A DNA stretch of 43,401 nt from Stutzerimonas stutzeri (GTDB taxonomy: Bacteria; Pseudomonadota; Gammaproteobacteria; Pseudomonadales; Pseudomonadaceae), in NCBI RefSeq assembly GCF_024451105.1, contig NZ_JANGEY010000010.1, forward strand, positions 77,006-120,406, given 5' to 3'. Both the position numbers and the translations under genes were made by a program. The number at the start of each line of letters is the position of its first letter. Within the stretch, counting starts at the first letter, position 1. This document shows, piece after piece, positions 10,693 through 26,940 of the stretch. Below the pieces are notes generated by a model. The model was given only the letters and a program-made list of their open reading frames with translations, searched no databases and had not been told where the DNA came from.

Positions 10693-10821
10693 CTCAATTC
10701 CTCGATGTATCGGGTTGGGCCTCCACGCACCCCAAAGTCCAACCCTCGCGGGCACCCAGGACAGTGTGTCGATGCGTGTGTGGTTTCAGTGCCTTTCCGG
10801 GACCACCCCGAAAAGCGCGGC

Positions 10822-24158: not shown

Positions 24159-24962
24159 ATGCTCATCTGCCCGATCTGCAGCGGCGCGCTGCACGACGTC
24201 GACGACGGCGTGCAGTGCGGCCACGGCCACCGCTTCGACCGCGCCCGCCAGGGCTACCTGAACCTGCTGCCGGTGCAGCACAAGAAGAGCCGCGACCCGG
24301 GCGACAACGCCGCGATGGTCGAGGCGCGCCGGCGCTTCCTCGGCGCCGGCCACTACGCGCCGCTGGCCGCGCGGCTGGCCGAACTGGCCGCCGAGCGCGC
24401 CCCGGCGCGCTGGCTCGACATCGGCTGCGGCGAGGGCTACTACAGCGCGCAACTGGCCGCGGCCCTGCCGCAGGCCGACGGCTACGCCCTGGACATCTCC
24501 CGCGAGGCGGTCAGGCGCGCCTGCAAGCAGGCGCCGCAGCTGACCTGGATGGTCGCCAGCATGGCCCGCGTGCCGCTGGCGACGGCCTCCTGCGGCTTGC
24601 TGGCCAGCGTGTTCAGCCCGATCGACTGGCACGAGGCGGCACGCCTGCTGCGTCCCGGCGGCGGCATCCTGCGCCTGGGCCCGGCCCGCGACCACCTGCT
24701 GGAGCTGCGTCAGAGGCTCTACGACGAGGTGCGCGACTACGTCGACGACAAGCACCTGGCCGACCTGCCGGAGCCCCTGAAGCTGGCCGACACCCAGACC
24801 CTGGAGTTCCGCCTGAGCCTGGACAGCTTCGCCGCGCGCAGCGACCTGCTGGCGATGACCCCGCACGGCTGGCGGGTCAACGCCGAGCGCCGCGAGCGCA
24901 TCCTCGCCGAGCCGTTCGAGGTCACCGTCTCGGTGCGCTACGACTGGATCGAGCGCCAATGA
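24159..24962 (+). CDS. rlmA: 23S rRNA (guanine-N1)-methyltransferase RlmA
   Basis: RlmA (RrmA) methylates N1 of G745 in 23S rRNA helix 35. The 267-aa protein begins with a zinc module, C4 and C7 in 'LICPICSGAL' with C20 and H24 in 'VQCGHGHRFDRARQGYLNLL', followed by the SAM-binding 'WLDIGCGEGYYS' (DIGCGEG at 87-93) and 'ALDISREAVRRAC'. The later 'FSPIDWHEAARLLRPGGGILRLGP' is family-typical. It follows dapE after 4 bases, an association also seen as PA1161-PA1162 in P. aeruginosa. Confidence 0.94.
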   Translation: MLICPICSGALHDVDDGVQCGHGHRFDRARQGYLNLLPVQHKKSRDPGDNAAMVEARRRFLGAGHYAPLAARLAELAAERAPARWLDIGCGEGYYSAQLAAALPQADGYALDISREAVRRACKQAPQLTWMVASMARVPLATASCGLLASVFSPIDWHEAARLLRPGGGILRLGPARDHLLELRQRLYDEVRDYVDDKHLADLPEPLKLADTQTLEFRLSLDSFAARSDLLAMTPHGWRVNAERRERILAEPFEVTVSVRYDWIERQ

Positions 24963-25016
24963 GCCCCCGGCGCGGCCGCCGGCCGCGCCATCCACCGCCG
25001 CATCAGGAAGCCCGAC

Positions 25017-25388
25017 ATGCGCCAACCGGATATCGAGATCTACCTCAAGGACATTGAGCTGCCGGCGCTGACCGCCTGGCTGGAGCAGGCCATCGGCCCG
25101 TGCAGCGAATGGCAGGTCCGCGGCCAGACCCACAAGTGCCGCGCCGCCGGCATTCCCGTCACCTGGCTGCCGAAGGCGGTCGGCAAGTGGCACAGCCTGC
25201 TGCTGGAAAGCGACCGGACGCCCTGGGACGACGACCTGGCCTGCGCCAGGGCCGCCTGCGCCGCCCTCGGCGTCGAGGTGCGCTGCGCACCGGGCAGCTG
25301 GAGCGAGGAGCAGGGCGAGGAAGACGCCGACCGCTGGCTGAAGGTCACCGGCGAGGGCGTCAGCGAGATCACCTGGCGCACCGGCTGA
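25017..25388 (+). CDS. Conserved hypothetical protein, 123 aa
   Basis: I do not recognise a named family. The 123-aa protein (MRQPDIEIYLKDIELPALTAWLEQAIG...) is soluble and slightly acidic, with no signal peptide or membrane helix. Mixed alpha/beta character is suggested by 'DIEIYLKDI', a helix to about residue 26, then strands around 'CRAAGIPVTWLPKAVGKWHSLLLES'. Two cysteines (29 and 41) and several tryptophans stand out. It follows rlmA after 54 bases and precedes the cold-shock/RNase gene by 35, with neighbour-like codon use, so it is very likely a real gene of this operon. Confidence 0.7.
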   Translation: MRQPDIEIYLKDIELPALTAWLEQAIGPCSEWQVRGQTHKCRAAGIPVTWLPKAVGKWHSLLLESDRTPWDDDLACARAACAALGVEVRCAPGSWSEEQGEEDADRWLKVTGEGVSEITWRTG

Positions 25389-25423
25389 GTCCGGCGCCCC
25401 CGCAACCATCCAAGAGACAGGCA

Positions 25424-26080
25424 ATGCAAGGCAAGATCGTCACCTGGAACGACGACCGCGGCTTCGGCTTCATCCAGCCCGAGGACGGCTCGGCCGAAGT
25501 GTTCTTCCACATTTCCGCGGTGCGCAACGCCGCGCGGCGGCCGCTGAAGGGCGAGCGCGTCGCCTTCGACACCACCCGCGACGCCTCCGGCCGGCTCAAG
25601 GCCGCCTGGGTGACGCTGGAAGGCCCGCCGGCGCCGGCCCGCCCCGCCCGCCAGCCGCGTGGCACCCCGGCGCCCGCCAATCCGTTCAAGCTGCTGACCG
25701 GCGCCGCGCTGCTGGTGCTGCTGTTCGTCGGCTGGCTGCTGACCCAGGGGCCGCTGCCGGGCCTGTTCGGCCCGGCGCCCGCGGGCAGCGGCAGCGTGCT
25801 GCAGGTCGAGGCGCCGATCCAGCGCGAGATCGACAAGACCCTCGCCCTGATCCGCCAGGGCGGCCCCTACCCGCACAGCCAGGACGGTACCGTGTTCCAG
25901 AATCGCGAGCGCCGGCTGCCGACCCAGCCGCGCGGCTACTACCGCGAATTCACGGTGCGCACGCCGGGACTGTCGCACCGCGGGCCGCGACGCATCGTCA
26001 CCGGCGGCAACCCGCCGGAGATCTACTACTACACGGAAGACCACTACCAGAGCTTCCGCGTGCTGGAGCCCAGGCCATGA
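25424..26080 (+). CDS. Cold-shock domain / membrane helix / RNase Sa-like ribonuclease fusion
   Basis: The 218-aa protein joins three parts. Residues 1-66 are a cold-shock domain with RNP1 RGFGFI (12-17) and RNP2 VFFHI (26-30). Residues about 67-87 are a basic Pro/Arg linker and 88-107 a membrane helix. Residues about 129-215 match guanyl-specific ribonucleases of the RNase Sa/barnase group: the guanine-binding FQNRE (158-162), then E175, R186, R190 and H207, equivalent to E54, R65, R69 and H85 of RNase Sa with spacings of 11, 4 and 17 against 11, 4 and 16. Arginines before the helix suggest N-in topology, placing the RNase in the periplasm. The downstream overlapping gene is a barstar, the inhibitor of this RNase class, so the domain is probably active. 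Confidence 0.85.
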   Translation: MQGKIVTWNDDRGFGFIQPEDGSAEVFFHISAVRNAARRPLKGERVAFDTTRDASGRLKAAWVTLEGPPAPARPARQPRGTPAPANPFKLLTGAALLVLLFVGWLLTQGPLPGLFGPAPAGSGSVLQVEAPIQREIDKTLALIRQGGPYPHSQDGTVFQNRERRLPTQPRGYYREFTVRTPGLSHRGPRRIVTGGNPPEIYYYTEDHYQSFRVLEPRP

Positions 26081-26508
26081 CCCCCGCCGAGTTCGCCGCC
26101 CGACTCCTCGCCGAGCCGGCGCGCGCCGGCCTGTACCGCGCCGCACCGGGCTGGGCGCAGGACACGCCGGAGATTCTCTGGAAACCGCTGGCGACCGCCG
26201 CCATCGACCGCGAGCGGCTGCTCGCCGCCCTCGGCCGGGCGCTGGAGTTCCCCGCCTACTACGGGCAGAACTGGGACGCCGCCTGGGACTGCCTGACCGA
26301 GCTGGACTGGCCGGCGGACCGGCTGCTGGCCGTGCGCCTGCCGATCGCGGCGGACTGCGCGGTGGACGCGGCCGCGCTGGAGATCTTCCTCGAGCTGCTC
26401 GCCGACGCCTGCCGGCACTGGGCCGAGCAGGGCCGCGCGCTGTGCCTGCTGGTGGAGACGGCACGCGAGGACATCGGCGGCCTGGATGCGCTGCCCGTCC
26501 CGGGCTGA
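26077..26508 (+). CDS. Barstar family ribonuclease inhibitor
   Basis: The 143-aa protein carries the barstar hallmark at residues 59-73, 'FPAYYGQNWDAAWDCLTEL', aligning with the barstar helix 'PEYYGENLDALWDCL'. D67 and D71 equal barstar D35 and D39, which plug the RNase active site, and Y61/Y62 match Y29/Y30. A C-terminal helix follows, '...EIFLELLADACRHWAEQGRALCLLVE'. It has about 40 extra N-terminal residues beyond the 90-aa Bacillus protein. It overlaps the RNase stop by 4 bases (ATGA), typical of toxin-immunity pairs. It is cytoplasmic (no signal) and presumably blocks any RNase not yet exported. Confidence 0.9.
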   Translation: MTPAEFAARLLAEPARAGLYRAAPGWAQDTPEILWKPLATAAIDRERLLAALGRALEFPAYYGQNWDAAWDCLTELDWPADRLLAVRLPIAADCAVDAAALEIFLELLADACRHWAEQGRALCLLVETAREDIGGLDALPVPG

Positions 26509-26521
26509 AAAGGCCGCCCAA

Positions 26522-26551
26522 CAAGAAGCCCGTCTCACGACGGGCTTCTTG
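26522..26551. terminator. Bidirectional terminator between barstar gene and csp
   Basis: A perfect 12-bp stem CAAGAAGCCCGT / ACGGGCTTCTTG (26522-26533, 26540-26551) with loop CTCACG lies between the two convergent genes, 13 bases after the barstar stop and 23 after the csp stop. Short A/T-rich flanks in both directions suit termination of both transcripts. Confidence 0.75.
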
Positions 26552-26574
26552 CGGCAACTCGAGTCGCAGAGAAC

Positions 26575-26784
26575 TCAGAGCTTGGCGACGTCTTCCGCCT
26601 GCAGACCTTTCTGTCCCTGGGCCACGGCGAACTCGACGCGCTGCCCCTCGACCAGCGAACGGTGGCCTTCGCCACGGATCGCACGGTAGTGCACGAATAC
26701 ATCGGGGCCGCTTTCGCGCTGGATGAACCCATAGCCCTTGGCATCGTTGAACCACTTGACGGTTCCAATCTCACGATCAGCCAT
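26575..26784 (-). CDS. Cold-shock protein (CspA family)
   Basis: This 69-aa single-domain protein is a small nucleic-acid chaperone that binds single-stranded RNA/DNA. It has RNP1 KGYGFI (16-21) and RNP2 VFVHY (29-33) within '[18 protein letters not shown]' and ends '[11 protein letters not shown]'. The frame is open 14 codons upstream, but ATG at 26784 preceded by AGAGAG gives the standard length. A leader of about 150 bases separates it from a good promoter, as at cspA-type genes whose 5' UTR controls cold induction. It matches PA1159 in P. aeruginosa by position. Confidence 0.95.
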
Positions 26785-26940
26785 TACAACTCTCTCCAGA
26801 CTCGCAAATGTTGATTGCCCCACCACGGAGCAGCTCGGGACGGTACGTTGAAAACGTTCTTCTTGTTATATCCGACCTCCGCCGCCGCGAGGCGTCTGGA
26901 GCGGGTATTACGAATGGCGTTCTTGACGACCGCTGGCCCG

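Follow-up and report, generated by a model that had tools for sequence, protein, structure and literature searches.

RNases are normally kept away from cellular RNA. The closest described systems are guanyl-specific RNases of the N1/T1 type, barnase and RNase Sa, with the inhibitor barstar. In PDB entry 1ay7, RNase Sa (chain A) is found together with barstar (chain B), which indicates that RNases of the Sa type can be partners of a barstar. Barnase is described as extracellular and its inhibitor barstar as intracellular (PMC8625414). The locus analyzed here has in common with these systems the RNase Sa fold, the catalytic residues, and an adjoining barstar gene. However, barnase and RNase Sa are free secreted enzymes, whereas the RNase of this locus is carried on a hydrophobic helix with an N-terminal cold-shock domain (CSD). 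Proteins that combine a CSD with DUF1294 share the N-terminal CSD, a linker, and a membrane part with the protein studied here, but end in DUF1294 instead of an RNase. According to two papers, the function of cold-shock proteins with DUF1294 is not established (PMC7404187, PMC7593944). CoCoNuT systems contain cold-shock-like folds, in an architecture that differs from our fusion (PMC11090510). Signal-anchored RNase Sa-type proteins of Halomonas, Halopseudomonas, Xanthomonas, Stenotrophomonas, Thauera/Azoarcus, and Acidovorax possess the same RNase, a hydrophobic N-terminus, and an adjoining barstar (62 of 64 CSD-less proteins among the best 80 of 575 relatives), yet unlike the fusion they have no cold-shock domain. 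A reading of the DNA made from the sequence alone (hereafter the sequence-only reading) had regarded the layout as unusual and not known to be a described system. This agrees with the open-access literature searched, in which we found no description of the combination of CSD, transmembrane (TM) helix, RNase, and barstar, or of a Gram-negative RNase Sa-barstar module. The parts are ordinary, and their combination seems to be undescribed.

The window, i.e., the whole 43,401-nucleotide stretch of Stutzerimonas stutzeri DNA that was analyzed, contains the following features of the locus:

25424..26080, + strand: gene of the CSD-linker-TM-RNase Sa-type fusion; ATG start, 218 amino acids
25424..25615, + strand: cold-shock domain, residues 1–64, with the RNP-like motifs RGFGFI and VFFHI
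25616..25684, + strand: basic proline-rich linker, approximately residues 65–87, probably cytoplasmic; three K/R and a net charge of +3 between the end of the CSD profile and the helix
25685..25744, + strand: single hydrophobic helix, approximately residues 88–107, predicted N-in/C-out; helix at 88–107 in the AlphaFold model
25811..26062, + strand: RNase Sa-type ribonuclease domain, residues 130–213, with E175, R186, R190, and H207
26077..26508, + strand: gene of a barstar-family inhibitor, 143 amino acids, with D67 and D71; Pfam E = 7e-19; no signal peptide by eye

The fusion gene and the barstar gene share four bases (ATGA). The frame of the fusion gene can also open at a GTG at 25100, but members of the genus share the ATG at 25424 as start. 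Coding sequence calls, Pfam matches, and the predicted helix bore out the coordinates and the order of CSD, basic linker, membrane helix, and RNase given in the sequence-only reading. The N-terminus of the fusion protein matched PF00313 (CSD) at residues 1–64 (E = 2.5e-14; 53.3 bits vs. a cut-off of 27), and the C-terminus matched PF00545 (Ribonuclease) at residues 130–213 (E = 9.2e-24; 84.3 bits vs. a cut-off of 24) over profile positions 16–96 of 98. These were the only Pfam models above their cut-offs in the 218 amino acids, and neither DUF1294 nor a delivery domain was among the matches. Residues E175, R186, R190, and H207 align with the positions of the RNase Sa chain that we take to be the catalytic E54, R65, R69, and H85, and the RNase domain contains the stretch FQNRE; the proposed resemblance to RNase Sa was thus confirmed by Pfam and by alignment to the RNase Sa chain. 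Equally correct was the assignment of the overlapping next gene as a barstar with both inhibitor aspartates. Its product matched PF01337 at residues 42–126 (E = 7e-19; 68 bits vs. a cut-off of 23.4) and barstar chain 1ay7_B (phmmer, E = 1.9e-4), and in the alignment its D67 and D71 occupy the positions of the inhibitor aspartates of barstar, presumably D35 and D39. With 11 sequences, AlphaFold gave an RNase part of low quality (mean pLDDT 66.3). With 52 sequences the mean pLDDT was 83.3 and the pTM 0.45, the relative arrangement of the domains being undefined. Structural comparison covered 1000 preselected chains, which were aligned.

The helix of the fusion protein has a best 19-residue mean hydropathy of 2.2 and is followed by 15 residues free of K/R. 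In all 12 fused proteins checked (out of 36 distinct ones), the 15 residues preceding the helix contain two to five K/R and the 15 residues following it no more than one, and the linker ahead of the helix holds three to nine K/R. According to the positive-inside rule, such a charge pattern corresponds to an N-in, C-out orientation. Among 66 CSD-less relatives, nine matched a loose lipobox pattern, a crude criterion that misses some lipoprotein-like N-termini and leaves at least one of the nine doubtful. Another hydrophobic N-terminal segment was present in 56, and the remaining one (L054), which was weak in the N-terminus scan, has a hydrophobic stretch at residues 4–22. The charge asymmetry, the signal-like N-termini of the relatives, and the lack of an apparent signal peptide in the barstar suggest that the RNase is periplasmic and the barstar cytoplasmic. 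From the hydrophobic N-termini and the barstar linkage of the CSD-less relatives, the fusion seems to have arisen through the addition of an N-terminal CSD to a signal-anchored RNase-barstar module of Gram-negative bacteria. The sequence-only reading had suggested three roles, namely a contact- or periplasm-facing RNase, an RNA scavenger, and an abortive device; of the locations implied, the periplasmic one is best supported by the charges before the helix and the exported-type relatives. Scavenging of RNA would be a possible role.

Comparison of the eight genomes from the window's genus gave a pN/pS of 0.29 for the CSD and 0.16 for the RNase, whereas the helix reached 1.08 and the two linkers 0.90 (residues 67–86) and 0.72. 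This difference shows that the fusion gene is not a product of chance, and the fusion architecture is a real, selected gene. The sequence-only reading had named as contrary evidence a missing ribonuclease domain, or homologues that lack both the catalytic residues and a barstar. The domain was found; the catalytic Glu, two Arg, and His are present in all 60 fused loci, counting duplicates, and a barstar adjoins 35 of the 36 distinct fused genes. All 59 barstars located next to fused loci, again counting duplicates, have both inhibitor aspartates. Among the 85 distinct unfused genes, a set that includes L088 and the toxin-like L132 and L134, 83 have a barstar next to them, and the 4-base overlap of the RNase and barstar genes is frequent among relatives. 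As for the two unfused exceptions, the sequence of L106 ends ~360 bases past the RNase gene, and a profile search of the flanks of L049 revealed no barstar. In the CSD, the motif residues F16, F27, and H29 are present in 36 of 36 distinct fusions and W8 in 34. Together with the purifying selection, these conserved residues argue for nucleic acid binding by the CSD. A role as a mere anchor does not account for the conserved RNA-contacting face and the pN/pS of 0.29, which show that the CSD is important.

The fusion is present in four genera, that of the window (a relative of Pseudomonas) and three others. A search of 56 related genomes found it at full length in all eight genomes of the window's genus (its own included; 76–100% identity), each time with a barstar behind it. 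Within the Pseudomonadaceae, 26 of 398 genomes contain the RNase family, and in 11 of these it is fused (eight genomes of the window's genus and three of genus g7, read as Thiopseudomonas). Alignment searches at the order and class levels scored up to seven candidates per genome. The order search (390 genomes) gave 11 full-length matches, ten from genus g74 (read as Psychrobacter) plus the window's own, three matches to the RNase part only, and 11 more to the cold-shock part. The class search (369 genomes) gave 13 matches, of which the window's own and that of G923 (genus g305) were full length and 11 covered the RNase part only, two of them with an internal stop. Genus g305 belongs to another order, and in the family of G923 two of 12 genomes matched, these being both g305 genomes in the search. 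In Psychrobacter, matches were found in 78 of 100 genomes: 73 span the whole protein (one with an internal stop), and five are partial (two with stops). The 22 genomes without a match and the few broken copies indicate that the function of the fusion is dispensable in this genus. Both domains exceeded the Pfam cut-offs in one Psychrobacter protein, one Thiopseudomonas protein, and both g305 proteins (L033, L046, L197, and L214). In a scan of 84,980 species genomes, the best 80 of 575 relatives comprised 15 with a CSD (Pseudomonas oryzagri, 13 Psychrobacter, and one Thiopseudomonas MAG), 64 without, and L088, which is cut by a contig end.

Two natural variants bear on the roles of the individual parts. 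In Psychrobacter G1156 (L221), the CSD was lost in frame while helix, RNase, and barstar were kept. The protein opens with residues like the start of a CSD and then passes straight into the basic segment, the helix, and the RNase; Pfam detected Ribonuclease but no CSD, and a barstar follows. On the basis of this one genome, the CSD appears separable, and the loss in G1156 together with the absent or broken genes elsewhere in Psychrobacter suggests that its role is not essential there. The second variant, which is the single fused exception to the barstar linkage, is an intact fusion with all catalytic residues in G1232 (L214/L224), one genome, rated 100% complete, in which no barstar was found nearby or genome-wide at an E-value of 0.001. 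Such a gene is easiest to understand if the RNase acts outside the cytoplasm. One Psychrobacter genome possesses a second barstar-family gene, located ~115 kb from the RNase locus (G552:C1:387131-387265; L218).

We consider it probable that the locus encodes an inner-membrane-anchored, periplasm-facing guanyl-specific RNase with a cytoplasmic barstar as safety lock, in which the anchor has acquired an additional cytoplasmic, RNA-binding CSD. The CSD and the basic linker would stay in the cytoplasm, with the single helix serving as signal anchor, and the Sa-type, guanyl-specific RNase domain would be exported and work at the periplasmic face. The barstar, through its predicted binding, would neutralize RNase molecules that fold prior to export or are not exported. 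As to the substrate, we conjecture that the RNase cuts RNA reaching the envelope, such as environmental RNA or RNA of lysed neighbours. The CSD would be an add-on, gained once or more, to the signal-anchored RNase Sa and barstar module; as a conjecture, its most likely role is the binding of cytoplasmic RNA on the inner side of the membrane, where it could serve for anchoring or as a handle for regulation, e.g., by contacting its own mRNA while the protein is being inserted. RNase T2 (PF00445), the usual RNase of the periplasm, is absent in 22 of 23 genomes with the fusion vs. 26 of 33 others, the single match in the former being partial. As evidence for a replacement of RNase T2 this is suggestive only, because related genomes are not independent and eight of eight Psychrobacter without the fusion also lack T2.

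The phylogeny of the CSD brings in a different reading, in which the membrane-bound CSD is the output of the protein, similar to a membrane-tethered regulator: the periplasmic RNase would bind or cut RNA, or be cleaved under envelope stress, whereupon the CSD would be freed or re-positioned onto cytoplasmic RNA. In a CSD tree (70 rows and 68 columns, a model without mixture, CSDs of G923 and G1232 left out), the CSDs of the window's genus and Psychrobacter grouped with other membrane-linked CSDs, i.e., those of CSD-DUF1294 and CSD-two-helix proteins, apart from free Csp (branch support 85/91), which speaks for this reading. The conserved RNA-contacting motif residues and the purifying selection on the CSD are likewise in its favour. 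However, the Thiopseudomonas CSDs lie across the 85/91 branch and neighbour the free Csp group without belonging to it (99/92). The catalytic residues of the RNase are preserved, and no other part of the protein is as strongly constrained. Furthermore, most of the best 80 of 575 relatives have no CSD, and the one Psychrobacter that dropped the CSD kept the RNase. Taken together, we regard an output role of the CSD as unlikely. Among the membrane-linked CSD proteins scanned with Pfam, four of four contained DUF1294 (L017, L018, L023, and L024). Another membrane-linked protein, L014 from a Pseudomonadaceae genome, has a CSD as its only Pfam match, two hydrophobic stretches, and a cysteine-rich end with several cysteine pairs that look like a zinc ribbon by eye; L141, from the genome of the Thiopseudomonas locus L046, resembles it in having a CSD, two hydrophobic stretches, and a cysteine-rich part.

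Trees of the RNase alone and of RNase plus barstar are compatible with a single gain of the CSD followed by losses or with two or more gains. A quick RNase tree (98 rows) needed four changes, with the contig-end-truncated L088 wrongly counted as CSD-less. In a careful RNase tree (50 rows), a single clade of all fused proteins was not rejected (p-AU 0.103), although it occurred in 0% of 200 bootstrap trees, and the three pairwise groupings had p-AU values of 0.20, 0.20, and 0.25. The RNase plus barstar tree (95 rows) joined Psychrobacter, Thiopseudomonas, and g305 in one clade (98/98) and placed the window's genus beside CSD-less Halomonas (98/61); here, the p-AU of a single fused clade was 0.066. 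Duplicates, near-copies, many Xanthomonadaceae, L132, and L134 were left out of all these trees, and L015 and L088 also out of the 50-row and 95-row trees. A free csp gene (26575–26826, − strand) is convergent with the RNase-barstar pair and adjoins it in eight of eight loci of the genus (L002–L009). Capture of this neighbour as the source of the fused CSD is unlikely, because the CSD tree separates the fused CSDs of the genus from the free Csp group to which this gene belongs.

The remaining explanations concern toxins. A cytoplasmic toxin-antitoxin or abortive device would have both domains kept on the cytoplasmic side by the hydrophobic stretch, with the CSD feeding RNA to the RNase and the barstar acting as an antitoxin that is released upon phage attack or stress. 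Such a device would fit an inhibitor that lacks an apparent signal peptide and whose gene adjoins the RNase in 35 of 36 distinct fused genes, overlapping it here. It agrees poorly with one clear helix preceded by basic residues, with the signal-like N-termini of relatives, and with a genome in which no barstar was found (G1232, at an E-value of 0.001). The genomic context also stands against it. The window neighbours scanned have housekeeping functions: a methyltransferase resembling RlmA, an M20 peptidase that reads as DapE, and a transport system of the ABC type. In the three Psychrobacter loci viewed, the fusion is preceded by a gene of 433 amino acids that we take to be proA. PADLOC returned only a generic CSD model for the locus (E = 1e-7), and the gene occurs in eight of eight genomes of the genus. 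The abortive device against phage or stress proposed in the sequence-only reading therefore finds no supporting context, and we judge a cytoplasmic toxin-antitoxin function to be quite improbable. Least plausible is a contact-dependent or secreted antibacterial toxin with the barstar as immunity protein, for although some Pseudomonadaceae carry an RNase of this family as the terminal part of very long frames with a barstar near (L132 in G414, 3944 amino acids; L134 in G350, 1460 amino acids), the 218 amino acids comprise only CSD and Ribonuclease in Pfam and no delivery domain (Rhs, VgrG, filamentous haemagglutinin, etc.), which together with the housekeeping neighbours argues against the contact-facing role suggested earlier. 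These long proteins are likely polymorphic toxins, and the G350 frame contains Rhs-like repeats by reading.

Further observations were made around the locus. No mobile-element families were found with Pfam among the 13 window ORFs scanned. In the Thiopseudomonas locus, the upstream genes look chemotaxis-like by eye. A conserved protein of 123 amino acids without a Pfam match is encoded at 25017–25388 (+ strand) and also just upstream in L003, L004, L006, L007, and L009. No promoter- or terminator-like sites were detected in 24900–26900 with a finder for the sigma-70 type only. Elsewhere in the window, a t44 RNA (RF00127) was identified at 10714–10800 (− strand; 69.7 bits).

A membrane-anchored, periplasm-facing RNase with a cytoplasmic barstar and an added CSD would place an RNA-binding domain and an RNase on opposite sides of the membrane, so that the sensing or processing of envelope RNA by bacteria becomes a testable question. 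A bolder and rather doubtful extension is a trans-membrane RNA device, in which the cytoplasmic RNA-binding CSD is tied by one helix to an active RNase across the membrane and events on one side, be it RNA in the envelope or the state of cytoplasmic RNA, control the other. If true, membrane-linked CSDs would form a receptor-like module family with interchangeable partners (DUF1294, the cysteine-rich two-helix part, and the RNase). The finding points to a little-noticed group of membrane-linked CSDs and to a Gram-negative RNase Sa-barstar module.
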